Of a stretch of 58,670 bases of DNA, positions 5,569-58,670 are shown one piece after another. The notes below the pieces were generated by a model. It worked only from the letters and a program-made list of their open reading frames with translations, was not told the DNA's origin and did not search any database. The DNA is taken from NCBI GenBank assembly GCA_016872645.1, contig VGZH01000032.1, positions 1 to 58,670 of the forward strand, read 5' to 3'. Position numbers and translations under genes: made by a program. How positions within the stretch are numbered: position 1 is the stretch's first letter; each line of letters opens with the position of its first letter. The DNA comes from Planctomycetota bacterium (GTDB lineage: Bacteria > Planctomycetota > Planctomycetia > Planctomycetales > Planctomycetaceae).

Positions 5569-5632
5569 GATCGGTCGCTACGTTCCGAAAAGGGAATTAC
5601 GGATGTTGGCCATTGGCTCGCGGCCGAAAAAC

Positions 5633-6124: not shown

Positions 6125-6178
6125 TGAAGCCGGTCAAGTCGCCCAATGGAGCAGGTCGACTACGTCAGCCAAAAGATA

Positions 6179-6235
6179 ACGGGCTGGGGTGCGGGACAAC
6201 ATCGAACGCCGATGTTATCCCGCACCCCAGCCCGT
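6179..6235 (-). terminator. Long hairpin after the flgM-like gene, terminator or repeat
   Basis: Two 26-base arms (6179-6204 and 6210-6235) are reverse complements with one mismatch and enclose a 5-base loop. On the minus strand the stem is followed by TTATCTTTT, so it fits a Rho-independent terminator for the flgM-like gene ending at 6258. The arms are unusually long and G-rich (GGGCTGGGGTGCGGGA), so it may instead be a mobile palindrome acting as a terminator. Confidence 0.65.
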
Positions 6236-6257
6236 AAAGTTGGTCTTTGGCCAGCGA

Positions 6258-6560
6258 TCAGGCTTCCAAGTCGATGCCGTGGCTGTCAAACATCTTCAGC
6301 ATCGCCGCTTCGAGCTTGGCATCCGTGTCGTAGGTGCCAGCATCAATCTCGGCCTTGATGCGAGCCAGTCGCTCCGCGCGTTGAGACGCTGCGGTTCCCT
6401 CGGTCAACTTGCCCATCAATTGGCCGGCGGCGGAGAGTTCGACTTCATCTTGCGGTACTTCCAGCGGTGGCTTGCTGGCGGCATTCGTCGGACCAGTCGC
6501 TGGACGGGCTCCTTGAATCGGAGTCGCATTGGGGATGAATCCAGGGCCTCGGACTTCCAT
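6258..6560 (-). CDS. flgM: FlgM-like anti-sigma-28 factor
   Basis: The 100-residue form begins MEVRGPGFIPN at 6560, seven bases after AAGGAGAGG. Its C-terminal half carries the FlgM signature DEVELSAAGQLMGKL followed by RAERLARIKAEIDAGTYDTDAKLEAAML, the two helices that bind sigma-28 (FliA) and hold it inactive until the flagellar hook is complete. The frame remains open upstream to an ATG at 6758, which also has a fair ribosome site (GAGGA), giving a 166-residue version with a polar Arg/Asp-rich extension. I prefer the short form because it matches the family length. No flagellar gene is nearby, so this would be a stand-alone regulator. A strong hairpin follows. Confidence 0.7.
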   Translation of the reverse strand: MEVRGPGFIPNATPIQGARPATGPTNAASKPPLEVPQDEVELSAAGQLMGKLTEGTAASQRAERLARIKAEIDAGTYDTDAKLEAAMLKMFDSHGIDLEA

Positions 6561-7145
6561 GTCGCCTCTCCTTGCCGGACTGGCATCTGGGGGGGTATTG
6601 CGACGACGACGAGAACGGGCATCATCCTTTTCAGGCTGATCCTTCCGCTCGGCGTCATCACCGTGGGGAGAATGCGGGGCATGGTATCGGAGATTGGAAA
6701 AACGGTTCAACGGGGTTTTGGGGTTCCCCGGCTCGATTGGCTCCGATTCGGATGACATGTTGATTCCTCAAAGTTGGCGGAGGTCAGCGAGCGGGATCGG
6801 TCTCGGTGGCAACGTTCCTTGCGAATCGTTCCGTATCCGACGGGCGTGGCCCGGCCGCGGCCTCACTGAGGATTTATCGTCACCGGCAAATTCCGCCGAT
6901 GAGCCGTCTGCAACCGATCCTGGCAAACTTTGAGGGCGCGCGGTTCGTCACGCAGTTTCTGCCGATTACGCCGCAACCGGCATTTCTTTTCGGCACTTCC
7001 TACGCCGCTCTTCGCTCACACGCGCCCCTGGCAAACCAGCCAAAGTTTGCGGATTGTGTCGCCGATACCACTTGTAAGGGTCGTAGCGCCGGTCTGCGCC
7101 GACGTTGTCCCAGCCGCGAGATCGTTCTCGAACAAGGTAGCCAGC
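6561..7145. other. Divergent intergenic region between flgM-like and tolC-like genes
   Basis: These 585 bases separate two divergently read genes and should hold both promoters. Part may be coding if the flgM-like gene starts at 6758. I looked for a sigma-28 pattern (TAAA then GCCGATAA) upstream of the flgM-like gene and found no convincing match. AAGGTAG at about 7133-7139 is the probable ribosome site of the tolC-like gene. Confidence 0.4.
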
Positions 7146-9206
7146 ATGTCATTTACCAAATCGCAGCCGACACGTCTTCGCCGGCTCGGCAGTGCAGGAC
7201 GCCGACTCTTGCGACGTCTGACTTTTGGCTCAGTGCTGGGAACCTCCCTGTTGGGTTGCGCCACTAATCCAGAATTGAAATATCTCGGCGACGACAAAGA
7301 GTTGGATTACTACAAGGCAACCGCCACTTCCATCGACTACCCGGCGATCGATACGCAAACCTCCCCGGAAGCCGCCTACGCCAAACGACCGCGCACAGTG
7401 CTTGATCGCGAGAAGGAAGAGGTTTGGGAAATCTCGCTCAGCCAAGCGATTCAATTGGCGATCCAGAACAACAGCATCATCCGTTCGCGAACCGCCGTCG
7501 GCGCACCATCGACCATTCTGACAGCCGGCGAACGGGCTCCATCCACCTACGATCCTGCCATTCAAGAGACCGGCGTCTTGTTCGGCGGGCGAGGAATCTC
7601 CGGAGCACTGCAGGCTTTCGACGCGACCTTTGAAACGACGATGACCTTTGGAAAGTCCAAGCTTCCTCAAAACTTAGACCCTAGTCCCGTCCAACAAGAC
7701 ACCGACACCGGACTTCTTGAATCCCGATTGTCCAAGACATTCGCCTACGGTGGTTTAGTGGCCTTGAACCACACAATGAATTACTCGAACGCCAACCCGG
7801 CGACTGGCTTGGCGTTTCCATCCGCTTATTCAGGCTTTGTCCGAGCGGAATACCGTCAACCGTTGTGGGCTGGTGCTGGAACCGAGTTCACGCGCATCGC
7901 GGGGCCGATCTCACAAAGTTTTGGCGGATTGAGCGGCGTCAACCAAGGTGTCGTGATTGCGCGGATCAACCAAGACATCACACTTGCGGACTTCGAAGCT
8001 CGCGTCTTGCAGATGCTCAAGGACGTCGAGGACTTGTACTGGGAGCTTTATCTTCGATATCGCGAATACGACACGGCGGTGACGAATCGGAACAGCGCCT
8101 TGCAGTCTTGGCGTGAGGCTCATCGCATCCTCGAGGCGGGAGGCAAGCCGGGCTTCAAGCCGTCTGACGAGGCTCAGGCCCGCGACTTTTATTTCCAGAG
8201 CCGCTCCCTGGCTGAGACGGCGCTGTCAGACATTTACTCTGCCGAAATTGCTTTAAGACGGATTGTCGGTCTGTCGGTCAATGACGGACGGATGATGCGT
8301 CCCAGCGATGAACCGACAACGGCCGCATTTCACCCAAGCTGGGAGACGTCGCTGACAGAAGCTCTGACGCAACGCGTTGAATTGCGAATGCAGAAGTGGA
8401 GTATCAAAAGTCTCGAATTGCAGTTGTGTGCGGCGGAGAGCCTGACAAATCCACGACTCGATTTCGTTTCAGACGTTCAGGCCAATGGACTCGGCGATGG
8501 CCTGCTCGGGAGTTACAACTCACCGAATCAGTTCAGCACCGTCTACGGTTCGATGGCAACTGGCAATTTCCCCGGCTGGAATTTGGGCTTTGTCTTCCAA
8601 ATGCCGCTCGGCTTCCGAGCCGCACACGCCCAGGTTCGCAATATCGAGTTACGACTGGCGAAGGCACGCGATCAACTTCAAGCCCAGGAGATCGACATCA
8701 GCCACGAAGTCGCTCAGGACTTCCAGAACATCGCAGTGCAGTACACGACGGCACAAACGAACTTCAATCGGTTCCGCGCCGCTCAACAGCGCGTGCAACT
8801 CTTCCGAGCGGAAGTGGAGGCCGGAACCAAGACCTTCGACGTGCTCCTGCGAGCACTCGGCAGTCAGGCCGAAGCCGAAGTCGCGTACTTCCGCAGCTTG
8901 ACCGAGTACAACAAAGCCATCGTCGCGCTGCACTATCACAAAGGGACGTTGCTGCCCTACGACGATGTCTGGCTCGCCGAGAGCGACTGGACTCCGGAGG
9001 CATACCGCGATTCGTTGCGTCATGCATGGGCACGTACTCACGCCCACGACGCTCCACAACTCGACACCGAACCGGCGGAATTTGTCGCTCAACCGGACTG
9101 GCACGCCCAGGAATCTGCGGCTCCAAATGGCACGCCGCCGGAGCCTGCCGTGCCGTACGAAACCGAAGTCGAGTTACCACCGCGACCAGCCCCTGCCGCC
9201 AAGTAG
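7146..9206 (+). CDS. TolC-family outer-membrane efflux lipoprotein
   Basis: The ATG at 7146 gives a 686-residue protein with an Arg-rich start and a lipobox (SLLGC, Cys 38), so it is probably lipid-anchored. The longer frame from 6930 is rejected because the upstream 72 residues are Arg/Ser-rich and precede the signal. After ISLSQAIQLAIQNN, a typical first TolC helix, come two long helical halves with coiled-coil character (ARVLQMLKDVEDLYWELYLRYREYD; YTTAQTNFNRFRAAQQRVQLFRAEVEAGTKTFDVLLRA). This matches the duplicated outer-membrane-factor fold that forms trimeric efflux channels. The tail is Pro/Glu-rich. No RND pump or membrane-fusion gene adjoins it, so its partner is encoded elsewhere. 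Confidence 0.85.
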   Translation: MSFTKSQPTRLRRLGSAGRRLLRRLTFGSVLGTSLLGCATNPELKYLGDDKELDYYKATATSIDYPAIDTQTSPEAAYAKRPRTVLDREKEEVWEISLSQAIQLAIQNNSIIRSRTAVGAPSTILTAGERAPSTYDPAIQETGVLFGGRGISGALQAFDATFETTMTFGKSKLPQNLDPSPVQQDTDTGLLESRLSKTFAYGGLVALNHTMNYSNANPATGLAFPSAYSGFVRAEYRQPLWAGAGTEFTRIAGPISQSFGGLSGVNQGVVIARINQDITLADFEARVLQMLKDVEDLYWELYLRYREYDTAVTNRNSALQSWREAHRILEAGGKPGFKPSDEAQARDFYFQSRSLAETALSDIYSAEIALRRIVGLSVNDGRMMRPSDEPTTAAFHPSWETSLTEALTQRVELRMQKWSIKSLELQLCAAESLTNPRLDFVSDVQANGLGDGLLGSYNSPNQFSTVYGSMATGNFPGWNLGFVFQMPLGFRAAHAQVRNIELRLAKARDQLQAQEIDISHEVAQDFQNIAVQYTTAQTNFNRFRAAQQRVQLFRAEVEAGTKTFDVLLRALGSQAEAEVAYFRSLTEYNKAIVALHYHKGTLLPYDDVWLAESDWTPEAYRDSLRHAWARTHAHDAPQLDTEPAEFVAQPDWHAQESAAPNGTPPEPAVPYETEVELPPRPAPAAK

Positions 9207-41414: not shown

Positions 41415-42458
41415 CTATTTCGTAGTCGGCTCTCCGCCGGAGATCGAGTCGCGCATCTTGGTATCGGCTTGGACGTTTCTGAGTTCGTAGTAATCCAGCA
41501 GGCCGAGCTTGCCGCTGGCGAGTGCTTGGGAAATCGCCAGCGGAATCTCCGCTTCGGCCATGACGACCTTCGCCCGGTTCTCTTGGATCAGCGCCACCAT
41601 TTCCTGTTCGGCGGCCGTGTAGGCGGCACGCTGCTCTTCCGCTTTGGCCTGAGCCACTCGAACCTGAGCTTCCGCTTGATCGGCCTGCAAGCGGGCACCG
41701 ATGTTTTCGCCCACGTCCACGTCAGCGATGTCGATGGAAACGATCTCGAACGCGGTCTGCGCCTCGAGTCCTTCGCTGAGCACCGTCCTCGAGATGTTAT
41801 CCGGGTTCGCGAGAACCTCTTTGTACGAGGGAGTCGAGCCAATCGCCTGCACGATCCCTTGGCCGACACGAGCAATCACCGTTTCTTCCGTCGCACCGCC
41901 GACCAGCTGCTTGATGTTGGTCCGCACGGTGACTCGCGCACGCACTTTCAATTGGATGCCGTCCTTGGAAACTGCATCCAGAGTGGTGCCACGTTTCGGG
42001 TCCGGGCAATCGATGACCTTCGGATAAACGCTGGTGCGGATCGCATCGAGCAAATCGCGGCCAGCCAAATCAATCGCTGCGGCCGTCTGCCAATCCAAGT
42101 CCGTCAGCCCGGCTCGTTGCGCCGCGATCAGGGCGCGAATGACGTCGGGGACGTTGCCACCAGCCAGATAGTGAGCTTCCAGAGCCTTCGTGGTGATTGG
42201 ATACGAGCGTGTCAGCCCGGCCTGCACCGCCATAATCTTGCTGCGGACGATAATCGTCGGACTGACTTTCCGCAGCGACATCATCAGCAAGCTGGGCAGC
42301 GAGATGTTCGCACGTGTCGTGACGCACTGAATCCACAACCCAAAGTAGCGAAAGAAGACCAGCAGAAAAATCAGCGCGAAGAACGCGACCAGCACGACCA
42401 CGCCCAACACCCAGGCATTCGAGTTTTCGGCGGCCAGCAAAGACAGATGATTCATCAT
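41415..42458 (-). CDS. floA: Flotillin-like protein FloA
   Basis: It encodes 347 residues from the ATG at 42458, six bases after GGAAG; the frame extends four codons upstream to a TTG that is rejected. A single membrane-embedded N-terminal hairpin ([22 protein letters not shown]) is followed by an SPFH domain ([37 protein letters not shown]) and a coiled-coil tail ([31 protein letters not shown]). FloA proteins form membrane microdomains involved in signalling, secretion and membrane fluidity. It lies 103 bases after NfeD on the same strand, the common FloA-NfeD arrangement. Confidence 0.92.
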
Positions 42459-42561
42459 AATGGCTTCCAAAGTGGGAGGGGCACTCTTGCCCGTCTTGTT
42501 TTCGGTGTCCGCGTTCGAGGACGGGCTAGAGTGCCAGTCCTACTACTACTTGTCGGTCGGT

Positions 42562-43386: not shown

Positions 43387-45522
43387 TCAGCCAACGGTTT
43401 TCGTTCGTGGGAAGAACACGCGTTTCGATGTGATCGACTCCGTCGCCTCGAAGCGTTTGCCCAGGCTGGCGTACTGGCCGAGTCGATCGGCGATCGCGGA
43501 CGCACCCTCAGTGTCGCACCAGTGCAAAATGCCGCCGCGAAAAGGTGGAAAGCCGATCCCCAGAATCAAACCCATGTCGACATGATGCGGTGCAGCGACG
43601 ATCCCTTCTTCGAGGACTCGTGTCGCCTCCAGCAGCATCGGCAAGAACAAGCGGTCGGTCAGTTCGTCGAGCGAGAACTGGCGGTTGTCCGTTCGATGCT
43701 TTTCGAGGAACGGCGCGAAATCGGGATCAGCCTCCGGCTTCCCCTTCTTGTTGAGCTTGCGGAAACCGGAACCGCTCTTGTTGCCAAGCCGTCCCGCTTT
43801 CACGAGTTCACCGAGAATCGGCGTCGGCTTCGCGCGGTCGGCGTATGCGGTCGAAACGACTTGGCCGGCATAGTATGCGGTATCCAAGCCGACGAGATCA
43901 CTGAGCGTGATCGGTCCCATCGGCATGCCGAACTTTGTCGCTGCCTTGTCGATGTCATCCATCGATGCCCCTTCTTGCAGCAAGAGCACCGCCTCGTTCA
44001 TGTACGGCAGCAGTACCCGATTCACCAGGAAGCCGGGGCAGTCTTGCATCACGATCGGCGTCTTGCCGATCCGCTTGGCGAGAGCCACGATCGTTGCCAC
44101 GGTGTCATCGTCGGTCTTCGCGCCGCGAATGACTTCAACCAGTTCCATCCGATCGACCGGATAAAAGAAGTGCATGCCCACAAATCGCTCGGGATGCGGC
44201 GCGGCTTCGGCCATGCGCGTGATCGAGATCGTCGACGTGTTGCTGCACAGGATCGCGTCGTCGCGGAGCAGCGGCTTCAGCTCACCGTACGCCTGCTTCT
44301 TGAGCGCCTCGTTTTCGGTGATTGCCTCGACGACGACGTCGGCATTGCAGAAGACCGCCCGCGATGTCGACGTGCTTAACCGCGTGAGCATCTCCTGCAT
44401 GTCTTGCGGAGTCGCGCGGCCGATCTTGATGCGGCCTTCGACCACCTGGCACGCCCGCTTCAGGCCATCGGCCAGTCGATCCTGTCCGACATCGACCATG
44501 ACAGCCGGCACGCCGCGGCGCGCGTGCGCGGTCGCGATACCCGCTCCCATCAGCCCGCTGCCGAGCACTCCGATGCTCGTCACGTCACGAGCCTTTGCGG
44601 TCGGTGGCAGAAATCCCGGATCGCGCCCCAGCGCGTTGTTCATAAAAAAGACCGAGATCAAATTCGACGAGATCGGAGTGCCGGTCACTTCGAGCGCGAC
44701 CTCCTGCTCGACCTTCAAGCCCTCATCGAGCGGCCGGTTGATCCCCAGCTTGATTGCTTTCAGCGCAGCCAGCGGAGCCGGATACTGCCCCTTCGTTTTC
44801 CCTTTAATCGCTCCCTCAGCACACGCGAACGCGAAGGTCAACTCGTTTTCGCTGAGTCCCAGAGGCTGCGAGCGGCGTTGACGTTCGGTCTGCCACTCGC
44901 CGGTCGATTGCACCCGCTCGATCAGCGCGGTACCCACGTCGATCAACTTGTCGGCCGGGACCGCATCGAAGCAAAGTCCGATCTGCACGGCCTTCGTCGC
45001 CGACACCGGCTCGCCGCCACAGATGATTTCGATCGCGTGCTGCACACCGACCAGGCGAGTCATCCGCTGCGTCCCGCCCCAACCGGGGATCAGTCCAATC
45101 TTCGTTTCCGGCAGCGCGATTTTCGTCGACGGGTTTGTGGAGGCGACACGGTAGTCCATCGACAGGATCAACTCGGTCCCGCCACCCATCGAGTTGCCAT
45201 CGACCAGAGCGACAACCGGCAGGGGCAACTGACTGATTCTCGAAAACAAGGTGTGACCGCTCGCGATCGCTTGTTGGCACCGCTCGCGCGGAGCGTCGAT
45301 CAACGCGGCCAGCTCATTCAAGTCTGCTCCGGCAATGAACTGCCCCGGCTTGCCGCTGCGAAACAGCAAACCCCTGAGGTCCGACCGCTTCTCGAGTTGT
45401 TCGACATGCGCGGCCAACTCGGTCAGCACCGCCTGCGACAACGTGTTGACCTTTTTGTCCAGCACGTCGAAAGTCAGCAACCCGATCTGGCCGGCGAGTT
45501 CTTCGAAGCGGAAAAATGCCAT
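43387..45522 (-). CDS. Fatty-acid oxidation complex alpha subunit (FadB/FadJ-like)
   Basis: The ATG at 45522 follows AAAGGA; an upstream TTG at 45537 is rejected. The 711-residue protein fuses an enoyl-CoA hydratase to a 3-hydroxyacyl-CoA dehydrogenase. The hydratase has catalytic E117 ([12 protein letters not shown]) and E139 ([17 protein letters not shown]). The dehydrogenase has the NAD-binding motif [19 protein letters not shown] at about residues 320-338, [19 protein letters not shown], and a duplicated C-terminal 3HCDH domain. It hydrates trans-2-enoyl-CoA and oxidises the product in beta-oxidation. No thiolase (FadA) is in the window. It follows yggS 11 bases downstream in the same operon, an unexpected neighbour. 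Confidence 0.93.
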
Positions 45523-45533
45523 GAGGAGTCCTT

Positions 45534-46229
45534 TCAAGAATCCAGACCTTCAAACAACCTGCTGCCGATACGAACTAAAGTCGCGCCCTCTTCGATGGCG
45601 ACTCCGAAGTCGCCGCTCATGCCCATTGAAAGCTCGGTCAATCGAGTTTGCGGCGCCGCTCGCCGCGCGAGTTCGTCTCGCAATTCTCGCAGTGCGCGGA
45701 ACACCGGCCGGGCGGCTTCGGGATCGTCGGTGAGAGGGGCCATCGTCATCAAGCCCGCGATCTGCACGTGGGGCACCGCTTGCAGCACGTCCCACTGCGC
45801 CTTCAACTCGGCGGCGGGCAGTCCGTCCTTCGCAGTTTCGCCCGAGACGTTGACCTCCAAGAGCACTTGCGGAAGAAGCGTTCGTTCGGCGGCGACCTCG
45901 GAGATTCGCTCCAGCAGTCGCAGGCTGTCGACAGAGTGAATTAACGTGGTTCGAGGCACCACGGATTTCACCTTGTTCCGCTGCAAATGGCCGATGAGGT
46001 GCCAGCGGATTTCGGCAGGAAGCTGCGCTGCCCGTTCAGCGAATTGTTGCGGTCGATTTTCGGCGAGGTCATGGACTCCCAGTTCGACCAATTGCCGGAC
46101 CCAAGCCAGCTGTGCGTATTTAGTGACAGCAACCAGCGTGACTTCGTTCGGCGAACGCCCGGCGCGCACGCAAGCAGCCGCGATTTCCGCGGTGACCTGC
46201 TGTAGATTGTCGGCTAAACGGTCATTCAT
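45534..46229 (-). CDS. YggS/PROSC family PLP homeostasis protein
   Basis: The start at ATG 46229 ([10 protein letters not shown]) fits the family N-terminus; ATG 46238 is an alternative, and the long frame start at 46265 is a TTG. The 231-residue protein has the PLP lysine K37 in LVAVTKYAQ, the ENRPQQ loop, [13 protein letters not shown], and the phosphate-binding GxSGD-like motif [14 protein letters not shown]. It binds pyridoxal phosphate and keeps its pool balanced without known enzyme activity. It starts a two-gene operon with the fadB-like gene. Confidence 0.93.
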
Positions 46230-46358
46230 GCCGGGCATTCTGGGGTGGTCGGCCAGCCCCGACAACGTATTGACCCTTCGGCGACGTCACGAATAGAGTC
46301 CGAAGCGTCTGCCGGCGGCCCCGTCGGAACGGAATCTCACTTCGCAGGATGGCGACAC

Positions 46359-47441: not shown

Positions 47442-47589
47442 TGCGGCTGAGCCCTGAAGTCCAAGTCCCAAGCTTTGATGTCCAAGGAATCCTTAACTCT
47501 CAATGTCCAAGTGAGCCGCGACAAACTTTGGGATTGGGGCCTTGGGGTTTCCTTGCTCATTGGGTTTTGGAAATTCGGATTTCTCGCCA

Positions 47590-48510
47590 ATGCACCAGAA
47601 ATTCAATCCACTGAATCGTGATCTGATCGTCAACATCAACGGACGACTGATCCACCGCGACCACGCGGGAGTCAGCCCTTTCGATTCAGTTGTGCAAGGA
47701 GGGGACGCCGTCTGGGAAGGCTTACGGTTGTACTCCGGCCGCATCTTCAAATTGTCAGAGCACCTCGCCCGGTTGCGCGGTTCGGCGAAGGCGCTCGCAT
47801 TCGCCCAGATTCCCAGCGACGACGAGCTGATTGAACAGATTCGCCGGACGCTCGAAGCCAATCAGATGTTCGACGGTGTCCACATCCGGCTGACGCTGAC
47901 GCGCGGAGTCAAGTACACGTCAGGCATGGACCCACGACTCAACACGGTCGGCCCAACGCTGATCGTGCTCGCCGAACACAAGCCTCCGGTCTACGACAAA
48001 GCAGGATTGAAACTCATCACCAGCAGCGTCCGTCGATTTCCGCCTGACTGCCTCGACCCGAAGATTCACCACAATAATTTGATTCAGTCGATCCTCGCGA
48101 AACTGGAAGCCAATCACGCCGGGGCCGATGATGCCTTGATGCTCGATACGCGAGGCTTCGTCGCCGAAACCAACGCGACGCACGTCTTTCTCGTCGATCA
48201 CGGAGAGGTCCTCACCAGCCGGCTGGTCGCCTGTCCGGAGGGGATCACGCGCACGACCGTGCTGAGGCTTTGCCGCAAGCACGGTATCCCACACGCCGAA
48301 CAGGATCTCTCGCTCACCGAGGTCTATCGTGCCGACGAAATGTTCTGCACAGGCACGATGGGCGAACTGGCCGCCGTCATAGACGTCGATGGCCGCACAA
48401 TCGGAACCGGCCAACCCGGCCCAATGACCCGCCGCCTCAGCGAACTCTTTGCCGAGCTGACCCGCACTGAAGGAGTCCGATTGCTATCTCCGCCAACAGC
48501 GATCGTCTGA
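47590..48510 (+). CDS. Class IV PLP aminotransferase (branched-chain aminotransferase type)
   Basis: The ATG at 47590 gives 306 residues. Motifs of fold-type IV aminotransferases are WEGLRLYSGRIFKLSEHLARL (43-63), catalytic K158 in DPKIHHNN, and E193 in GFVAETNATHVFLV. GITRTTVLRL follows later. These enzymes interconvert branched-chain amino acids and their keto acids; D-amino-acid transaminase and aminodeoxychorismate lyase belong to the same fold, so ilvE is likely but not certain. It follows the hypothetical gene by 148 bases on the same strand. No valine/leucine biosynthetic gene is nearby. Confidence 0.85.
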   Translation: MHQKFNPLNRDLIVNINGRLIHRDHAGVSPFDSVVQGGDAVWEGLRLYSGRIFKLSEHLARLRGSAKALAFAQIPSDDELIEQIRRTLEANQMFDGVHIRLTLTRGVKYTSGMDPRLNTVGPTLIVLAEHKPPVYDKAGLKLITSSVRRFPPDCLDPKIHHNNLIQSILAKLEANHAGADDALMLDTRGFVAETNATHVFLVDHGEVLTSRLVACPEGITRTTVLRLCRKHGIPHAEQDLSLTEVYRADEMFCTGTMGELAAVIDVDGRTIGTGQPGPMTRRLSELFAELTRTEGVRLLSPPTAIV

Positions 48511-48900: not shown

Positions 48901-51900
48901 ATGTTTTTTACTCCTTGGTTGCGCTCTTTTTCCCGTCGTATCCGCTTTTCAAAACGTCGCCAGAAACGACTCAGTCCGCAGCAGCACCAAAAGATGCTGC
49001 GCGGGCCGATCGTCGTAAGCCAAAACGTCGAAGGCCTGGAAGAACGGCTCGTTCTGACTCCGCCCAGCTTCGTGTCGGTGACGCCGAACGGCGGGTTGTT
49101 TTTGTCGGACGGCGCGACGTTGACCGAGTCGCCGCGCGAATTGTTATTTCAATTCAGCCCTGGCCAGACGCTGGCGGCGGCGCAATCGACGCTGTCCGTC
49201 GCGGTGAATTCTGGAGCGACGTTTCTGACGTTGCCCACTGCCGCCGAGATCAACAAATTCAGCAGCCTGACCACACCGTTCAACGTGCAGATCGGGCGAG
49301 ATGGCTCAGAGATTGCCACGGTTTCCTCCGTCGACGTTCCCCTCAGACGCCTGAATTTGACATCGCCGACTACCGCCGCTCACGCGATCGGGGAATCGGT
49401 GACGTTGGCTTCGCTGACCGCCATTCAGATTTATGCCGCCGGAAATGACGGCGGCTTCCGTGCCGCATCGGCCGTGACCGATTTCAATTCTGCCGGTTCT
49501 GTCGTGTTGCGTCTGGGGACCGCACGCTTGGGGGCCGCCGAAAACGGCAGGATCCTGACGATCAACAAGTCGGATCTTGGTCTCAATGCGCTGCCAACGA
49601 TCACCGGCGCTGCTGGCGCGATCACGCTGAGGTTGAACAGCAATACGACCACGCCCACCACGGCCAACGGGTTGATTCAATTCCTGCAAACGGATGCCAC
49701 CGCGAAGACGTTGTTGACAGCGGAGTTGGTGTCTGGATCAGGCACGACCTCGCTGGCGGCGATTGCCAATGGCACGAATCTGACCCTCAATGGCGCTGGG
49801 GCCGCTTCCGCCTTGTCCAGTCTCGGAGCAACACCCGGGTTCTCGATGCAGTTCCGGGCGAAAGCGTCCGGGCCGGCGGGGAATTTGATTTCCTTGCAGT
49901 TCGTTGGCCGAAACCTGGGATCGGCCACCCCATTGATCAACGTGGTGGGGAATCGCATCGAAGTCACACTCAACAACGGTGCCAGTCCGACCTTGGCGTC
50001 GAACTTAATCACCGCCATTCAAGGCAATGCTCAAGCGAATGCGTTGATTAGCGTCTCCACGGTTTTTGGAAACAGTGCGACCAGTCTGGCCGAGACGCCG
50101 GATGGCACGCTGCTGCAACTTTCCGGGGCCGATCAGTTGCTGTCGCCAGGTTATCGCGATTTGCAATCCGGCAGCACGAATGAAGTGATCTATCGCTTCG
50201 CGGAAGCGTTGGGAGACGACAAGTATCGCATTCAAGTGGTGGGCGCCGGAGCCAATCCGCTGGTCAATACGGGATTGGAAGTTCTCAACGACACCAATCT
50301 GGACGGTGTGGGCGCGGACTCACTGTTGACGCTGACTCTGAATCTGGGCACGCAAATCAGCGCGGTGGTGCCGCAACCGGTGATTCGCAATCAAGTGTTG
50401 ACGGTGCTCAACGCCGCTAACGTCACGGATGGCGATGTGCTGTTGATTGATCCAGGAACCCTCTCCGCATTGGGGACACCGAACCTGTTCGCGTTTGAAT
50501 TCGATCGCACGGGTGGTGTGCGGGCAGGCAACACTCCGATCGACATCACGGCCGCAGTGACGGCGACCGACGTTGCGAATGCAATCGTCGCGGCAATCAC
50601 TTTGCAGACCGCGAACATGCGCGGTGTCAGCGCGAGCAATGTCGCCGGGGTGGTGACGGTGGTTGGCAATGCGTTCGACCCACGGCTCACTTTGTCGCAA
50701 GCCAACAGCACCGCGATGTCGGTCAAGGCGGGTGGTCTCACTCCGCGGCAGAATTTGGTGAATGTTTATTTCAACCCGGACCAACTGGTGAGCTCGCTGG
50801 CGACTGATCCGCGCTTCTATCAGTTGATCGACACGCAGGGGACCGTGGCGACCACCGATGACCAGATGCGAATTCCCACCTCGGTCATCTACGACAACGT
50901 CCACAACACGGCGGTGCTGGACTTCGGTCTGAACCTGCCGACGGCGACCTATAAACTGCGCACCGGATCTTCGGACGAAACGAACAACACGATCGGGACT
51001 GCCGTGGATGTCGGTCGCATCCATGGATCGTCACCATTCAGACAATTGGGCTTCATCGGCGACGCGGGGGGGAATGCGGACTTCGATCTCTACAAATTTG
51101 AAGTGCAAGCCAACAGCACAATCACCGCGACCGTTCAGCCAGGAACAAGTCTGGATTCGACCTTACGGTTGTTCTCGGACGCAGGAGTGCCGCTGGGAGC
51201 AACGACGGTTCTGAACGGCGGGCTGGGCGGGACCGATCAGATCTCGTTCGTGTCGCTTCTAGGTGGCACGTTTTATCTCGGTGTGTCGAATAGCGTGAAT
51301 AACGTTTACAGCGCGGTGGACGGCAGCGGAACGGTGGCCGGCGGCACCACCGGCACGTACCAGTTGACGATTGCCAGCAACACGCTGGTTTCTGCGAGCG
51401 ACAACAACTCGAGTTTCGCCACGGCGACGCAACTCGGTCAGTTGGGGCGTGGCGGGCAGGTCTTCCAGAGCCGAATCGAAGCGCAGCAAGGGATTCCTGT
51501 TCCACCGCCCGCTGGCGGTCCGGACGAACCGGGGCATCGCGAGATTCCAGCCGAGTCACACGGCGTCGGCCCCGGCACGGCCCCGAGTGCTCCGGGAGCG
51601 TTGGGCATTGTGCGGTTCAACTTCCCGCTGACCTATGGTGTGGACTCACAGGGCAACACGCTGTTTAACCAGATCACCGAAGATCAGAAGCAGCGTGCTC
51701 GCGAGATTTATGAGATCTACGGAAGGCTGTACGGCTTCGAAGTGGCGGAAGGGGGCGGCACGGGGATCGTCACCGGCGACATCCGCGTGGTGGACCCCAG
51801 CATGCCGCCTGACGCGGCGGCGGGAATCGCCGGCGGCGGGCTGGCGGTGATGAACGCGCGGCTGAACTTCACCGCGACCGACAATCAGTTCGGCGGCAGT

Positions 51901-54900
51901 TGGATGGGCATCGCGCTGCATGAAATTGGTCACATCATCGGCCTGGGACACTCCTACGAACTTCGTTCGGTGCAAGGCAATGGCACGGCAGGGGAAGATC
52001 AGTATCCCGGCCACAACGACATCGTGCATGGCCGCCGCATCAGACCCAATAATGGCTCGGACATCGACCTGTATCAGTTCAATGTGGCGACGACCGGCAA
52101 CTTCACCGCCGAAATCGTGGCGGAACGAGATGCCAGTCTGCTCAGCAATGGCCTGCTCGATTCCGTGCTGCGGCTCTACAAGCTGAATACGGACGGCACA
52201 CGGACGCAGATCGCGCAGAACGACGACTACTTCAGCGCGGATTCGTATCTGAATCTCACTTTGGATGCGGGCACGTACTTCGTCGGCGTCAGCAGCACGG
52301 GCAATAATGACTATGACCCGACCATTTCCGACACCGGCTTTGGCGGAACTTCGGATGGGAACTATCGGCTGAAGCTGAATTTCACGACGGAGACTTCCGC
52401 ATCGCTCGGTCAGTTGAGCGGTGTGGTTTCCGCAGCTTCCAATGCGACTCCGATCGTCATTACCTCCAACGCTCACGGGCTGATCAACGGCAATCAAGTC
52501 ACGGTCAGCGGAGTTGGCGGCAACACGGCAGCCAACGGGACGTTTACAGTCACCGTGCTGGATGGGAACAGCTTCCGGCTCGACAATTCGATCGGCAATG
52601 GAGTCTACGCGGCCGGAACAGGCACTTGGTTCCGCACGACGGACGCTCGCTTCGACGGTGACCTGGACAACAAGGCGGGCGGACCGGCCAACGAGTTCGC
52701 CTTCCGCAGCGGCACGACGCTGTACGTCGACAAGTCGGTTATCACGAACTTGACCAGCGCCATCAACTCCGTGACGACTGCAATTCCGGTCCGCGACGCC
52801 AGCGTGTTCACGTCGCCGACGCCGTTCAACATCAGAATCGATAACGAGGAAATGTCGGTCACCGGCATCAACGGCAACACACTGACGGTGACGCGTGCTC
52901 AAAACGGGACGACGGCCGCGTCGCACACGTCCGGCAAAGCGGTGCGGCCGGTGTCGGCCAACGGGACGTCCACGAATCCCTTTGGCTTGATCTCGGATGC
53001 CATCGCGGCGGCGGCCGAAGGGAATCTGATCCGCATCGTGGGGAACGGTGGCACGGATAACGACATCCTGACGGTAGCCGACAACCGACCGTATTTGATC
53101 GGTTTGAATGATGCGTTCGCGGTACTGGAGGATGGTTCGACCTTTGTCGCGCCGAAGAACGTCGTCGTGCAGATGGATGCCGGAGCGCTCTTCAAGCTCA
53201 ATCGTGGCGTTATCGACGCCGGTACATCGGCGGTGGGATTGGATCGCAGCGGCGGCGCGCTGCAGGTGTTGGGCAATACGCGGCAAAGCGTGTTCTTCAC
53301 CTCGCACGAAAACGACCTGATTGGCGGCGACAGCGACGGCGTGACCGACGGCGCGAATGCCGGCGACTGGGGCGGACTGGTGATGCGAGCCGACTCGGAC
53401 TTCCAGGCGGCGGATGCCGCTGCCAACCCAGATGCTCCCGGCATCTTCTTAAACTACATCAATCACGCCGACATCAGCTTCGGCGGCGGGTTGGTTACGG
53501 TGAACTCGGTCACCAGCACCTTCAACTCGATTCATATCGTGACGGCTCGGCCGACGGTCACGCACAACATCATCAGAAACGGTGGTGACGCGGCCATGTC
53601 GGCCGACCCGGACAGCTTCGACGATTCGCGTTGGCGCATCGGTCCGGAACTGTTTGCCAACCAGTTGATCAACAACACGCTCAATGGCATCTTCGTCCGT
53701 ATTGTCACCACGGCCGGCGTGCCACAGGACCGGCTGACCAAGACCGCTCGGTTCGACGATACGGACATCGTCCACTTGATTACTCAAAACTTGGAAATCG
53801 TGGGCAACGCGGGTGGACCGCTCAATGGCACTCCGCGTCCCAGCGGACGGTTGGCGGTTGATCCGGGTGTTGTGGTCAAGTTCGGCTCGTCACGCATCGA
53901 AGGTTTGCGAGGCAGCTCGCACCTGATCACGGAAGGGACGCCCGGCAATCCGGTCATCCTGACCTCAGTGAATGACGATCGCTACGGCGCAGGTGGAACG
54001 TATGACAGCACCAACAACGGCACCTCGGTGGTGGCCGCGGCCGGCGACTGGGGCGGCTTGATGTTCAACGCGGTGTCGCGGTTGAGCATGGATAACGCCT
54101 ACGTGGCCTTCGCCGGCGGCAACATTCCGATCGAAGGTGGTTTCGACAACTTCAACACGATCGAAGCGCATCACAACACGAGTGTCCGTGTCGCCAACAC
54201 GTTGTTCGAGAACAACGCTGCTGGCGGCGGTGGCAACCGCAACGGCCGCGGCAGCAGCACGGCGGCCACGATCTTCGTCCGTCAGGCGCAGCCGATCATC
54301 GTTAACAACACGTTCCGTAATAACGGTGGTGCGGTCATCGACATCAACGCCAACGCGATGCTCAGCACGTTCCAGCGCGACACCGGCAGCAGCACCGGCG
54401 ACCTGGGAGCCTTTACGCAGTTCGCCGGCAATCATGGTCCGCTGGTGCGGCTGAATCGCATGGAAGGCAACGGCATCAACGGCATGAACGTCCGCGGCGA
54501 TATCCTGACCACCGAATCGGTCTGGGACGATACGGACATCGTGCATGTGCTCCGCAGTGAAATCCGCGTTGATCAGCATCACACCTATAGCGGTCTGCGT
54601 TTGCAGAGCAATCCGGGCGAGAGTCTGGTCGTTAAACTGCTGGGCGCAAACGCCGGATTTACGGCGGACGGAATCCTGCTGGACATCGATGACCGCATCG
54701 GCGGCACGGTGCAGATTCTTGGACAGCCGGGCTTCCCGGTGGTGCTCACTTCGCTGAACGACGATTCGGTCGCTGCCAGCCTGGATCCGCGCGGTTTTCC
54801 GCAGTTCGATACCGACAATGACGGAGCCGCGTCGCCGGCCGTGCCCGGTCAATGGCGCAGCATCCTGTTTAACAGGAACAGCAACGACCGCAACGTCCGC

Positions 54901-57900
54901 ACGGAGTTGGAAGAAGAGAAAGCCAACAACGGTGGCATCGACATCAATGACAACGCGGGGAACGCTCAGTACCTCGGTGAACTGGCTCCGCAACATAAGA
55001 CGGGGCCGCAGGCAGACTCGCTGGGTGTGACCACGCGCATCAACAGCGACGACAATCGGCCGGCTGGTTTTGAAGTTCAAGGGTTTATCAGCGCGGATGA
55101 TGCTGGTGACGTTGATATTTACAGCTTCGATGCCACCGCTGGCAGCGAGATCTGGGTCGACCTCGATCGCACGCGCGGCGCGGCACTCGATCCGGTTGTT
55201 GAACTGGTTCGAGCCGACGGCTTTGTGCTGGTGCGTGCCCGCTTCAACCCGCTCACGAATCGCGTCGAGGATTTGAACGGCAATGCACAGCCAGCCAATC
55301 AGCAACTGACCAAGTTCGACTATGATGGCGGCGACTTTTACACGTTCAACTTCCGTGATACCGGCTTCCGCACGACTCTGCCGGGCAATGCTGGAACCGT
55401 TGGCACGTACTTCGTCCGCGTCCGCAGCAATCAAGCAACCAATGCCAATCTCAACAACGTGATTGATGGCGGCCTGACCAGCGGCGAGTATCAGTTGCAA
55501 ATCCGCCTGCGGCAAACGGACGAGAAGCCCGGCTCGGTGGTTCGCTTTGCCGATATCCGGTTCGCGACGATCGGCATCGAAGTCAACGGCCTGCCACGGC
55601 ACTCGCCGCTGCTGGGCGAATCGATGGAGACCACCGCGCAAAATAACGGTCCGAACCAGACGCATCAGCCGTTGGGTAACTTGCTCGATTCCGACCGCAA
55701 CACGATCAGCTTCGGCGGGACATTAAGTTCCGGCAATGATCAGGACTTCTTCCGATTCAATAGCGACTACGCCAGGACGATTCTCGGCGATTCGATTCAG
55801 GTGATTGGCGGTTCCAGCGGTGGCGGCAAGACTTGGACGGCGGTGTTCGATCTGGACTATGCCGATGGTCTGTCGCGCGGCGATACGACGCTAACCGTCT
55901 ACGATGCCGGCGGACGGCCGATCTTGATTGGTCGTGAATCGAGCATCGAAGACGATCGTCCGGCCACCGGAACTGGCGTCAACGGGCTCCCGCAAGGGAG
56001 CGATCTCGACGATCTTACGCGCGGTTCGGTCGGTCCGCTGGATCCCTTCATCGGTCCGGTGCAGTTGCCGACGGGGAATCCGGGCGATACCACGAACTAC
56101 AGCGTGGCGGTCAGTTCGAATCGTTTCACCAACTCGCAACTCGATCAGACCTACGATGCCACCCCCACGAACCCGCTGGTTCGGTTGGAGCCGGTTAACT
56201 CGGTCACGCGCATCGTGGAAGATCACATCGGCGTCCAAGGCTACGATTCCAACGGCGCGCAAGTGGACCCCACTTTGGTCGACGGACTGTTTGATATCAC
56301 CAGCGCTGCATCGCTGAGCACCAATGTCCGGCCGTTTGATTTCGGTGACGTGGTGCTGTTCGTCAACCAGGGGGACGCGCTGCGGACGGTGAATCCGCTT
56401 TTCGGGCAGTTGGTGACCACGATCGACACCGATTTGACAGCCGGCAACGACTTCATGCAGGACATCGTGATGCGCTCGGACGGAACGCTTTACGGTTATC
56501 AACGAGTCGACGCCACCCCCAACACGGCGGGACGATTGGTGAGGATCAACACCGGCGACGGCACGCTGACAACGGTCGGAACGGACAATATCCCAGGCGA
56601 GTCTGCGCCCTTCGTGGACGGCAACAATTCAGACTTCGACGATCTGACGATCACCGACGAAGTTGGGGCCGTCACGTTCCGCCGCACCGATGGCCCGTCC
56701 TACGAAGGCTACTACAGCGTTTTTGAAAACGAAGGGGGAGGAACGGGGGCCTCCGACACGACCCGTAATTCCAAGTTGTACCGGTTCGACCCGGCTACCG
56801 GCGTAATTGCCAATTCGGCAAACGATCAAGGCTTTGCCAACATTCAGTACGCGGGCGTGACCTACGCCACCGCAACGATCACGGTGCTCAACACCGCGCC
56901 TGACTCGACCACCATCAGGTTGCAGGCGCGGGCTCCGGGAACCGGCGGCAACGGCATCACGATCAACGTGATCTACGCCGGGGATGGGGGCCAATCGGTC
57001 AGTGCGGGCGGTCGCACCATCACCGTCAGTGCTGGAACGGCCGCGACCGCGCAGGGCATCGTGGACGCGATCAACCAGCACCCGGTTGCCGGACTGCTGG
57101 TCCAAGCGGCTCGGATCACGAACAACGACGTCACGGGGGACGCCAACGTCATCACTAGCGGTACAACGACAGGTGGTACGCAAGGGGTGGCCGGGGTCAT
57201 CAAAGGGAACGTGACCGGGTTGGCGTTTAACCAGTTCAACGGCGGCAATCTGTTCGGCGTGACCAGTCGTGGCGAGTTCATCAGCATCAATCGGGACACT
57301 GGGCGGGCGACCCTGATTAAGGACTTCAGCCTGCCCGCGAACGGCAGCATTGGCACTAACGCGGGCACGAACGGTTTCCAGGGCTTGGCGTTGGGGCCGC
57401 AAAACGTCGATGCCAACGGAAACGGCACCGGAGGTGATTTCGCCAACACGTTCTTTGCGATTACGCAAGACGGACGGCTGGTCGCCTTTGACAACACAGG
57501 GAATACCGTCAGCGCGTTTGACAGCAATCGGCAAACGCAAACGGTCAGTATTCTCGGCGAGCAGGAAACGCTGGTCGGCGGGCATACCATCGAGGACGTC
57601 ACGCTCCAAGTGACCGACGCCAGCGTGTTCACGTCGCCGACGCCGTTCGACATTCAGATCGGTACCGAGCGGATGACGGTCACGAATGTGAATACGGCCA
57701 CTGACATTCTGACGGTCGTTCGTGGAGTGAACGCCACCTTCGTTTCCACCGTCAGTGCGGTGACTCCGGTGTTGTCGACGGACAATTCCGTGTTTGTGGC
57801 GAATGCCAGCCTGTTCGCGACGGCGACGCCGTTCATGATCCGCATCGATAACGAATTGATGCGCGTGAATACTGTGGCCGTTGGAGCGAACCGACTGGAT

Positions 57901-58670
57901 GTGACGCGCGGGGCGACAGTCGGCTCGGTGCGAGCAAACCACAACTCCGGTACGGCCGTTTATGAAACCTCCGCCGTGGCGCACGTCACAGGCGAGCGCA
58001 TCTTCGACCTGACCAGCGAATACACCCTGACGTTCGATACCGGCACGCAGTTGCTGACCACCGCGCCGCTCAGCGTGAATGCGCCGGGGGCCAGTAGCTC
58101 GGCACAGGATGAGAGCCAGGAATTGGACGTCGTCGCCTACAGCGGCACCTGGGGCATCGACATCGTCAACGACTTCGCACGCACGACCGCCCTGCGGGCG
58201 AACGTGCCGGCATCCACCAGTGGTGCCACGGGCACGATCCAGGTGCAAAGCACCGCTGGCTTCCCGGCCGCGCCATTTATCCTCCGTGTCGAAGACGAAT
58301 TGATGCGGGTCACGGGGGTCGGTGCCAACAGCTTCACCGTGATCCGTGGCGTGCGCAACACGTCGGCCGTGGCACATCAAGGGGCCACGACGTCCGGTCA
58401 AACGCTGGCGCCAGAGACGGTCTATCAGGTACTCACCACGACGCTCAACGAGCCAGGCAATCTGGCAGCGGCGCCGACAACGACGATTGCTGCAACATCT
58501 GGTTTGGACAATTCCGCCGCCACAATCACGTTCGATGTGACGGACGCCGCCTTCGCAGCCGCGCTCGTCAACGACGTGTCTGTTCTGCGGATCGACGCTG
58601 AAGAGATGCTGGTGCGAAACGTCGCCGGCACGACGATCACCGTCGATCGTGGCAGCAACGGCACAGCGGT
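48901..58670 (+). CDS. Giant multidomain surface metalloprotease/adhesin, 3' end beyond window
   Basis: The ATG at 48901 opens a frame that stays open to the window edge (at least 3256 codons); I read it continuously and the key motifs all fall in frame. A basic N-terminus leads to EGLEERLVLTP (residues 44-54), an LEPR-XLL-like export motif of planctomycete giants. Beta-rich repeats follow. A pre-peptidase C-terminal (PPC) type domain is near residue 726 (DFDLYKFEVQANSTI). A matrixin-like metalloprotease begins near residue 900 with zinc motif HEIGHIIGLGH at 1007-1017. A second PPC domain (SDIDLYQFNV, 1053) follows. A right-handed beta-helix-like region lies at about 1380-1985 (GDWGGL twice). 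Two more PPC domains start at about 2070 and 2260, then a propeller-like stretch (2430-2880). Five related modules (about 1290 and 2900-3256) carry E-M-V...RG motifs. Probably cell-surface. The start follows AGAGG. Confidence 0.85.
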   Translation, partial: MFFTPWLRSFSRRIRFSKRRQKRLSPQQHQKMLRGPIVVSQNVEGLEERLVLTPPSFVSVTPNGGLFLSDGATLTESPRELLFQFSPGQTLAAAQSTLSVAVNSGATFLTLPTAAEINKFSSLTTPFNVQIGRDGSEIATVSSVDVPLRRLNLTSPTTAAHAIGESVTLASLTAIQIYAAGNDGGFRAASAVTDFNSAGSVVLRLGTARLGAAENGRILTINKSDLGLNALPTITGAAGAITLRLNSNTTTPTTANGLIQFLQTDATAKTLLTAELVSGSGTTSLAAIANGTNLTLNGAGAASALSSLGATPGFSMQFRAKASGPAGNLISLQFVGRNLGSATPLINVVGNRIEVTLNNGASPTLASNLITAIQGNAQANALISVSTVFGNSATSLAETPDGTLLQLSGADQLLSPGYRDLQSGSTNEVIYRFAEALGDDKYRIQVVGAGANPLVNTGLEVLNDTNLDGVGADSLLTLTLNLGTQISAVVPQPVIRNQVLTVLNAANVTDGDVLLIDPGTLSALGTPNLFAFEFDRTGGVRAGNTPIDITAAVTATDVANAIVAAITLQTANMRGVSASNVAGVVTVVGNAFDPRLTLSQANSTAMSVKAGGLTPRQNLVNVYFNPDQLVSSLATDPRFYQLIDTQGTVATTDDQMRIPTSVIYDNVHNTAVLDFGLNLPTATYKLRTGSSDETNNTIGTAVDVGRIHGSSPFRQLGFIGDAGGNADFDLYKFEVQANSTITATVQPGTSLDSTLRLFSDAGVPLGATTVLNGGLGGTDQISFVSLLGGTFYLGVSNSVNNVYSAVDGSGTVAGGTTGTYQLTIASNTLVSASDNNSSFATATQLGQLGRGGQVFQSRIEAQQGIPVPPPAGGPDEPGHREIPAESHGVGPGTAPSAPGALGIVRFNFPLTYGVDSQGNTLFNQITEDQKQRAREIYEIYGRLYGFEVAEGGGTGIVTGDIRVVDPSMPPDAAAGIAGGGLAVMNARLNFTATDNQFGGSWMGIALHEIGHIIGLGHSYELRSVQGNGTAGEDQYPGHNDIVHGRRIRPNNGSDIDLYQFNVATTGNFTAEIVAERDASLLSNGLLDSVLRLYKLNTDGTRTQIAQNDDYFSADSYLNLTLDAGTYFVGVSSTGNNDYDPTISDTGFGGTSDGNYRLKLNFTTETSASLGQLSGVVSAASNATPIVITSNAHGLINGNQVTVSGVGGNTAANGTFTVTVLDGNSFRLDNSIGNGVYAAGTGTWFRTTDARFDGDLDNKAGGPANEFAFRSGTTLYVDKSVITNLTSAINSVTTAIPVRDASVFTSPTPFNIRIDNEEMSVTGINGNTLTVTRAQNGTTAASHTSGKAVRPVSANGTSTNPFGLISDAIAAAAEGNLIRIVGNGGTDNDILTVADNRPYLIGLNDAFAVLEDGSTFVAPKNVVVQMDAGALFKLNRGVIDAGTSAVGLDRSGGALQVLGNTRQSVFFTSHENDLIGGDSDGVTDGANAGDWGGLVMRADSDFQAADAAANPDAPGIFLNYINHADISFGGGLVTVNSVTSTFNSIHIVTARPTVTHNIIRNGGDAAMSADPDSFDDSRWRIGPELFANQLINNTLNGIFVRIVTTAGVPQDRLTKTARFDDTDIVHLITQNLEIVGNAGGPLNGTPRPSGRLAVDPGVVVKFGSSRIEGLRGSSHLITEGTPGNPVILTSVNDDRYGAGGTYDSTNNGTSVVAAAGDWGGLMFNAVSRLSMDNAYVAFAGGNIPIEGGFDNFNTIEAHHNTSVRVANTLFENNAAGGGGNRNGRGSSTAATIFVRQAQPIIVNNTFRNNGGAVIDINANAMLSTFQRDTGSSTGDLGAFTQFAGNHGPLVRLNRMEGNGINGMNVRGDILTTESVWDDTDIVHVLRSEIRVDQHHTYSGLRLQSNPGESLVVKLLGANAGFTADGILLDIDDRIGGTVQILGQPGFPVVLTSLNDDSVAASLDPRGFPQFDTDNDGAASPAVPGQWRSILFNRNSNDRNVRTELEEEKANNGGIDINDNAGNAQYLGELAPQHKTGPQADSLGVTTRINSDDNRPAGFEVQGFISADDAGDVDIYSFDATAGSEIWVDLDRTRGAALDPVVELVRADGFVLVRARFNPLTNRVEDLNGNAQPANQQLTKFDYDGGDFYTFNFRDTGFRTTLPGNAGTVGTYFVRVRSNQATNANLNNVIDGGLTSGEYQLQIRLRQTDEKPGSVVRFADIRFATIGIEVNGLPRHSPLLGESMETTAQNNGPNQTHQPLGNLLDSDRNTISFGGTLSSGNDQDFFRFNSDYARTILGDSIQVIGGSSGGGKTWTAVFDLDYADGLSRGDTTLTVYDAGGRPILIGRESSIEDDRPATGTGVNGLPQGSDLDDLTRGSVGPLDPFIGPVQLPTGNPGDTTNYSVAVSSNRFTNSQLDQTYDATPTNPLVRLEPVNSVTRIVEDHIGVQGYDSNGAQVDPTLVDGLFDITSAASLSTNVRPFDFGDVVLFVNQGDALRTVNPLFGQLVTTIDTDLTAGNDFMQDIVMRSDGTLYGYQRVDATPNTAGRLVRINTGDGTLTTVGTDNIPGESAPFVDGNNSDFDDLTITDEVGAVTFRRTDGPSYEGYYSVFENEGGGTGASDTTRNSKLYRFDPATGVIANSANDQGFANIQYAGVTYATATITVLNTAPDSTTIRLQARAPGTGGNGITINVIYAGDGGQSVSAGGRTITVSAGTAATAQGIVDAINQHPVAGLLVQAARITNNDVTGDANVITSGTTTGGTQGVAGVIKGNVTGLAFNQFNGGNLFGVTSRGEFISINRDTGRATLIKDFSLPANGSIGTNAGTNGFQGLALGPQNVDANGNGTGGDFANTFFAITQDGRLVAFDNTGNTVSAFDSNRQTQTVSILGEQETLVGGHTIEDVTLQVTDASVFTSPTPFDIQIGTERMTVTNVNTATDILTVVRGVNATFVSTVSAVTPVLSTDNSVFVANASLFATATPFMIRIDNELMRVNTVAVGANRLDVTRGATVGSVRANHNSGTAVYETSAVAHVTGERIFDLTSEYTLTFDTGTQLLTTAPLSVNAPGASSSAQDESQELDVVAYSGTWGIDIVNDFARTTALRANVPASTSGATGTIQVQSTAGFPAAPFILRVEDELMRVTGVGANSFTVIRGVRNTSAVAHQGATTSGQTLAPETVYQVLTTTLNEPGNLAAAPTTTIAATSGLDNSAATITFDVTDAAFAAALVNDVSVLRIDAEEMLVRNVAGTTITVDRGSNGTA
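52776..52950 (+). repeat. Protein module copy 1 (E-M-V-RG type) of the giant gene
   Basis: It encodes about 58 residues with FNIRIDNEEMSVTGI, LTVTRAQNGT, and ASHTSGKAV. Copies at 57604-57770, 57790-57966, 58204-58400 and 58540-58670 share F.I.I..E.M.V..V and the V.RG motif. The DNA of this copy matches copy 2 exactly over 34 bases (52794-52827 and 57615-57648). Confidence 0.7.
57604..58670 (+). repeat. Array of four related protein modules (copies 2 to 5) of the giant gene
   Basis: Four consecutive to near-consecutive modules have anchors FDIQIGTERMTV, FMIRIDNELMRV, FILRVEDELMRV and SVLRIDAEEMLV, each followed by an RG motif (VVRG, VTRG, VIRG, VDRG) and often by H and G (HNSGTAV, HQGATTSG). 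Copies 3 and 4 are separated by a different segment (about 57970-58200). The array continues past the window edge. Confidence 0.7.

Follow-up and report, generated by a model that had tools for sequence, protein, structure and literature searches.

The stretch of DNA analysed here in full, hereafter the window, is a contig of 58,670 nucleotides from a draft Planctomycetota genome (GCA_016872645.1, VGZH01000032.1), and its distal end carries what we take, at a probability of about 0.6, to be the first part of the gene of one giant and probably exported protein: surface-attached, calcium-dependent, equipped with a protease and variable in its middle through exchange. The N terminus of such a protein would direct it to the cell surface, its RTX repeats would fold with calcium outside the cell, and its repeat blocks and small modules, together with the cadherin-like parts of relatives, would bind polymers or neighbours, so placed that the protease would cut proteins at the attachment site. 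Alleles of the locus would swap parts of their middles by recombination, with ends and neighbouring genes kept; the outward-facing parts would therefore differ between close relatives.

The frame starting at position 48901 of the forward strand runs through 3,256 codons to position 58670 without a single stop, which bears out what the sequence-only reading of this DNA had claimed; an in-frame stop was looked for across the whole interval and none was found. At the G+C content of the stretch (0.604), a random frame of this length would be stop-free with a chance of about 1e-46. The frame extends back to a GTG at 48829, and the corresponding frame of G005, a genome of the same genus, begins with MFFTPWLRSF, as at the ATG at 48901. 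The edge that cuts the frame is a contig end: The window is the entire contig C32, one of the 213 contigs of a draft genome of 5.76 Mb. A stretch of 2,000 residues from the homologous protein of the related genome G059, taken from beyond the window's end point, has a single match in the window's own genome, on contig C82 (53% over 1,082 residues). C82 likewise ends within the frame, which continues for 3,490 codons to a stop and has nearly the C terminus of G005 and G006. Upstream of the window gene, DNA identity to G004, G005 and G006 is 82.8–88.0%; past the C82 stop, identity to G005 and G006 is 85.2–86.8%, and in both of the latter, which belong to the same genus, the same flanking genes enclose a single unbroken frame (8,987 and 8,184 residues, respectively). 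Because of the matching C82 frame, the syntenic flanks and the single spanning frame in G005 and G006, we take C32 and C82 to be two parts of one gene with an unsequenced gap between them:

48901..58670, forward strand: 5' part of the giant gene, 3,256 codons with no stop before the contig ends
Contig C82 of the same genome, from the contig end, reverse strand: 3' part of the giant gene, 3,490 codons to the stop, with the RTX end

Joined in this way, the predicted protein would have a length of about 6,900 to 8,400 residues, and 3,256 plus 3,490 codons plus the gap exceed the 5,000 residues (15 kb) that mark a giant planctomycete frame. Exact repeats were considered as the cause of the assembly break and rejected: A comparison of the final 4 kb of the window with 15 kb of C82 found no common 20-mer, and the ends of the two contigs show no exact overlap of 10–399 bases.

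Within the window, the predicted protein is laid out as follows:

48901..49062, forward strand: basic N terminus ending in VEGLEERLVLT, with no Pfam match and with similar N termini in G004, G005 and G006
49237..49401, forward strand: module B copy in the N-terminal domain, residues 113–167, at a site where G005 and G006 have about six residues
49507..50127, forward strand: two copies of module A, about 95 residues each, residues 203–298 and 316–409
50998..51510, forward strand: PPC-type domain 1, from Pfam PPC (three stretches in the protein), limits by eye
51523..51561, forward strand: conserved DEPGHR..P.E.H stretch just before the protease, from a 22-row alignment
51598..52035, forward strand: matrixin-like zinc protease domain, about residues 900–1045
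51919..51951, forward strand: HEIGHIIGLGH with the predicted zinc ligands H1007, H1011 and H1017 and the predicted catalytic E1008
51973..51975, forward strand: Gln1025 at the Met-turn position, which is Met in most relatives and in MMP-12
52063..52296, forward strand: PPC-type domain 2, Pfam PPC at residues 1055–1132 and NCBIfam FDP_fam at residues 1051–1153 (25 bits versus a cut-off of 29)
52438..52632, forward strand: module C, residues 1180–1244, with a weak Pfam E1_FCCH match
52783..52944, forward strand: module B copy, residues 1295–1348
53023..54930, forward strand: three beta-helix-like repeat blocks, residues 1375–1640, 1644–1912 and 1912–2010, from profile comparison
55108..55428, forward strand: PPC-type domain 3, following repeat block 3
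55648..56340, forward strand: PPC-like domain 4, from profile comparison, limits approximate
56518..57570, forward strand: propeller-like stretch (by eye), split by a module A copy at residues 2672–2759
57601–57771, 57790–57960, 58234–58380 and 58528–58665, forward strand: four module B copies, residues 2901–3255, where the contig breaks off

The N-terminal motif is presumably an export and sorting signal of the planctomycete LE-R type. The sequence-only reading had joined a protease to an adhesin-type architecture on this frame, and the zinc motif HEIGHIIGLGH lies exactly where it was placed, at residues 1007–1017, in agreement with the HExxHxxGxxH consensus. A Pfam search with hidden Markov models matched matrixin (PF00413) at E ≤ 0.1 in 21 of the 22 aligned rows, the window included (best E 1e-12). 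When the 22-row profile was compared with the PDB, human MMP-12 was the best match (E 4e-9), with MMP-1, matrilysin and serralysin chains also found; the MMP-12 alignment spans the first helix to the Met-turn. The order of helices and strands is no more than compatible with a metzincin fold. A PDB search with the window protein alone gave no match at E ≤ 1. In MMP-12 the Met-turn methionine lies eight residues past the third histidine, the position of Gln1025 in the window. In the 35 rows that keep all the ligands, the residue is Met in 24, Gln in nine (the window included) and Asn in two; in some rows it stands nine or ten residues after the histidine, where the alignment is less sure. G878, R880 and H887 ahead of the protease and H1043 behind it are invariant in all 22 rows and possibly play a role in latency or metal binding. 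On a strict definition the window domain lacks one of the features that define metzincins; its homology makes it a predicted matrixin-type domain (the matrixins are M10 in MEROPS), and it probably works like a matrixin. As a side observation, a frame of 6,837 residues in G054 (L045/L046) contains a second HExxHxxGxxH motif, HEIGHGIGIYH at residue 281, besides the one at 1026.

The scaffold around the protease was characterized mainly by profile comparison, as Pfam on the window protein alone gave weak matches only (PPC, E1_FCCH, matrixin, Reprolysin_3 and a holin family at E 0.4). Four PPC-type domains had been read from the sequence: Three correspond to Pfam stretches, with a whole-protein score under the cut-off, and the fourth emerges from comparing residues 2230–2500 with 2030–2260 (94.7%, E 6e-8); across the 22 rows, PPC matches at E ≤ 0.1 in 14. 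For the region described as beta-helix-like, strong internal repetition was recovered, with block 1 matching block 2 (99.8%, E 6e-29) and block 3 matching block 2 (98.2%, E 4e-14), so that residues 1375–2010 are three repeats of one block, probably with a beta-helix fold. The fold itself was not established: In a 13-row alignment of residues 1640–2570 (mean column identity 49%), Pfam Beta_helix matches only two of the 13 rows at E ≤ 0.1 (best E 0.013), and the profile of this alignment has no PDB match at E ≤ 1. C82 supplies the glycine-rich, calcium-binding nonapeptide repeats near the C terminus (RTX, PF00353; seven stretches, E 3e-21) and has no other Pfam match at E ≤ 0.01. The C-terminal part varies within the family, because that of G059 contains cadherin-like, Big_9 and RTX repeats and the C-terminal half of the G040 protein has GEVED as its sole Pfam match at E ≤ 0.1. 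The core architecture shown by these comparisons is a predicted series of PPC, matrixin-like protease, PPC, repeated blocks and PPC; the window gene adds an RTX end to it.

With this composition, preceded by the basic LE-R-type N terminus, the predicted window protein is a member of a planctomycete family of giants. Searches with the protease region gave matches on six contigs from named drafts of planctomycetes; 19 of a further 58 related genomes match at E ≤ 0.001, 16 of them at E ≤ 1.4e-12 and the other three at E 2e-5 to 4e-4. In stretches retrieved from 14 genomes the frame is complete in ten, ranging from 4,713 to 8,987 residues (6,634 in G059), and is cut by the stretch limits or the contig in G044, G004, G023 and G025. 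A search of 392 phylum genomes, drawn evenly from a larger group, yielded 25 matches in 20 genomes (the window's own included) at E ≤ 1e-20; six first-look candidates were scored per genome, so that weaker or further copies may have escaped. All 25 lie in frames of at least 3,297 residues, the shortest being that of the window, which is cut by the contig, and the other 24 measuring 4,726–8,396. The search for relatives also returned matches in frames of 865–2,184 residues, several of them on short contigs, and weak matches (E 1e-5 to 4e-4) in frames of roughly 900–1,000 residues; the majority of these weak matches are confined to the PPC side of the query. None of the strong matches is thus a free-standing protease of this type, although such a form may exist. 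In the window's own genome no second copy of the protease was found at E ≤ 0.001, with one match elsewhere at E 0.6.

Comparison along the locus suggests exchange of the middle. The flanking-gene proteins of the window genome are 93–96% identical to those of G004, G005 and G006 (G009 downstream only), and the ends of the gene follow the same pattern, with 70–88% identity overall to G004–G006: Over the first 92 residues identity is 88% to G005 and G006, 71% to G004 and 45% to G059, and over the last 800 residues it is 70–87% to G004–G006. Residues 410–690 are 65–66% identical to G005 and G006 and 44% to G059. From about residue 700 to C82 residue 860 the relation is reversed, with 31–58% identity to G004–G006 and 43–77% to G059, the propeller-like part being nearly even (38–39 versus 43). 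Some of these identities cover only part of a section; a finer scan in steps of 120 residues places the switch of sides at about residue 700. At the DNA level, a match above 80% to G005 and G006 stops at codon 92 and resumes at C82 codon 2,657–2,685, with weaker pieces (64–73%) and one 94-bp piece of 83% in between. In the protease tree, the window groups with G017, a genome of another genus of the family, and with G059 at 99% support, apart from five other same-genus rows. The gene thus looks like a mosaic, as judged from these identities: Its ends match same-genus alleles, and most of the first two thirds of what lies between is closer to G017 and G059. The protease-bearing alleles, those of the window, G004, G005 and G006, have middles that are 31–69% alike in the sections compared. 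G009 (L082, C75 513–5939) keeps the downstream neighbour and only the C-terminal RTX part of the gene within a different, shorter protein; its frame stops short of the usual C terminus, and no protease motif was seen in it.

The small modules add a second layer of variation. Module B, 54 positions long, is present in six copies in the window protein, in one copy in C82 and in 16 copies each in G005 and G006, with 52 in the whole set. The sequence-only reading had spoken of five repeats of a small module; the repetition stands, with a count of four at residues 2901–3255 and further copies at 1295–1348 and 113–167. A profile built from 29 of the 52 copies gave 17 matches on six contigs of the window's own genome, 16 of them in frames of at least 1,482 residues and one in a frame of 596 residues, which rules out that the module is confined to the giant gene; the contigs besides the window are C11, C30, C38, C82 and C105. 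Of 50 module blocks (A, B or C) flanked well enough for comparison, 27 have one or more relatives in which the matching flanks stand at least 30 residues closer together; for the remaining 23 no shorter-spaced relative was found. At residue 92 the window is about 76 residues longer than G005 and G006, which have six there, and two window copies of module B, separated by 1,600 residues, have 87% identity over 70 bp. In Pfam, each family matches at most one of the 29 copies at E ≤ 0.1, but there are matches to PHROG families of tail, baseplate and virion proteins, with phrog_1101 in 22 of 29 (best E 3e-5) and the best overall at 1e-7. Judging from these patterns, the modules appear to have spread in frame among giant genes. 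Module A, about 95 residues long, stands at the same point of the PPC domain behind the protease in at least four relatives, L003 (G059), L047 (G005), L049 (G006) and L052 (G004), and is absent at that point (window residue about 1100) from the window and others; either repeated gain or clean loss would produce this distribution.

Several observations count against a surface-attached, protease-bearing protein with exchanged middles, and they have to be weighed together with the alternatives. The window region alone scores 22.6 bits against Pfam matrixin (cut-off 24), and the whole-protein PPC score is also under its cut-off (20.4 versus 25.9 bits). AlphaFold prediction of the protease region from seven sequences gave a mean predicted local distance difference test (pLDDT) value of 45.4, too poor for a fold test, and the beta-helix fold of the repeat blocks is unproven. 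The 34 residues after H1017 of the window contain no methionine, and zinc ligands are lost in five of 40 rows (L024 and L078–L081), with the whole motif missing from L079–L081, two of which share a contig with an intact giant copy, in G054 and G406; because of these five rows, cutting is not essential to the family. Such losses, together with Gln at the Met-turn in the window and eight of its 39 relatives and Asn in two, would fit a pseudo-protease in this branch, that is, a structural or binding module in which the zinc site is kept and efficient catalysis is lost. The available text of PMC1266349, which describes the metzincin Met-turn methionine as absolutely conserved, points both ways: Erwinia protease C is compromised by replacements, Leu, Ala and Ile being harmful and His, Ser and Asn giving variants too unstable to isolate, whereas MMP-2 with Leu or Ser is only slightly affected; the word glutamine is absent from that text, and a literature search for glutamine at the Met-turn returned no paper with a title or abstract start on the subject. 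We consider the loss of catalysis unlikely, given that 35 of 40 rows, all nine Gln types among them, keep the three histidines and the glutamate, and that the Met and Gln rows need at least five changes on a quickly built tree (poor support for 11 of its 37 inner branches, Met-turn column kept in), which resembles a tolerated swap. The protease might instead be a maturation enzyme that, once exported, cuts the giant itself or its sisters, freeing for instance the N-terminal part or the fibre, and would then have nothing to do with feeding. PPC domains that flank secreted proteases are usually removed after export, all 25 strong phylum matches lie in giant frames, and the conserved DEPGHR...H stretch ahead of the protease could, as a guess, be a latency or cleavage element. 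However, no cut site was identified and three copies without the zinc motif still lie in frames of 5,243–6,473 residues, so that processing by the protease domain is not obligatory for the architecture; we give this role a small share of the probability only.

As for the mosaic, C82 residues 860–2650 are near neither side (31–47% to the same genus, 29–33% to G059), and the identity of G005 to G006 and G004, 47–69% in the middle, rises gradually toward the C terminus, from 47–61% to 81–84%, which could be explained by simple fast divergence. Both observations fit exchange less well. They favour an apparent mosaic in which, without any recombination, the middle evolved faster in G004–G006 than in the window and G059, and surface parts often do evolve fast. 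This account is nevertheless doubtful in view of the change of sides at about residue 700 and of the protease tree, which places the window with G017 and G059 at 99% while ends and flanks follow the genus: A single clade of the six same-genus protease rows is rejected with an approximately unbiased p value (p-AU) of 1.7e-13 on a tree of 35 rows (L077–L081 dropped), in a test made after the tree had been seen, and a same-genus clade that includes L033 and L034, which sit among these rows, is weakly rejected (p 0.02). Constant neighbours for the gene across the genus are ruled out: In the stretches examined, G002, G003 and G010 have the upstream neighbour and G001 has the downstream one, but with no end of the gene next to it; the 5' end of the gene in G003 and G007 is found on a contig stretch from which the upstream neighbour is missing. 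Estimates of the gap between C32 and C82 also diverge, from about 175 residues by the spacing in G059 to 1,070 in G006 and 1,300–1,700 in G005. That C32, or its pairing with C82, is an assembly artefact is suggested by the 213-contig draft and by the two contig ends inside the frame; we regard such a chimera as highly improbable, since the frame is open across the switch, the switch falls between homologous domains, unbroken counterparts are present in other assemblies and both flanks are syntenic with G005 and G006. Going beyond the exchanged surface protein as such, we tentatively propose, at somewhat less than even odds, a polymorphic giant-surface-protein locus with fixed ends and neighbours, middles that are exchangeable between close species, modules that also match phage tail families and spread in frame, and a metzincin-like domain whose Met-turn methionine gave way to Gln several times while the zinc site was retained.

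Upstream, the gene is preceded by one neighbour that served as a marker of synteny:

47542..48510, forward strand: aminotransferase class IV, upstream neighbour and 5' synteny marker

Further upstream lie, all on the reverse strand, a FloA flotillin-like gene at 41415–42470 (Pfam E 5e-142), a fused enoyl-CoA hydratase/3-hydroxyacyl-CoA dehydrogenase at 43387–45537 and an alanine-racemase-N protein at 45534–46265.

The view that no described protein combines these features has to be given up. Pla52n_17500 of Stieleria varia, a protein of 6,858 residues annotated as ‘Matrixin’ and listed with calcium-binding and cadherin-like adhesion domains, is already published (PMC7717043, Table 2, in the portion available); compared by annotation only, it resembles the window protein as a planctomycete giant with a matrixin label and cadherin-like adhesion. 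According to the accessible parts of the reports on Fuerstia marisgermanicae (PMC5177795) and on huge proteins (PMC11573180), planctomycete giant genes exceed 5 kb and some exceed 20 kb, many are predicted to act at the surface or in adhesion, and Big_9, cadherin-like and RTX domains are common in the huge proteins of the phylum; in these same parts, the words protease and peptidase are absent from PMC5177795 and metalloprotease and matrixin from PMC11573180. With the matrixins (MMPs) the window protein shares HExxHxxGxxH and the MMP-12 profile match from the first helix to the Met-turn; unlike them, it has Gln in place of the Met-turn methionine, and its scaffold measures some 7,000 residues or more. 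Giant1–5 of Apilactobacillus kunkeei are, in the available text of PMC12863079, exported giants with a beta-solenoid part and a conserved C terminus that diversify by intragenic recombination; they differ from the window protein in phylum and domains, and no protease is named among them there. The architecture is consequently of an already known kind, and within the literature searched the Gln Met-turn, the mosaic and the roaming modules are left as new.

Giant genes are plentiful in planctomycetes, and most have no known role (PMC5177795, available part); a recurrent protein with a recognizable domain of catalytic type, encoded in a single frame, offers a testable handle on one class of them. 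A family with apparently repeated Met/Gln swaps would allow the role of the Met-turn to be tested on natural pairs. Should the mosaic be confirmed, it would mean that giant proteins of this phylum diversify by exchange of internal parts, as the accessible text of PMC12863079 describes for bee lactobacilli.

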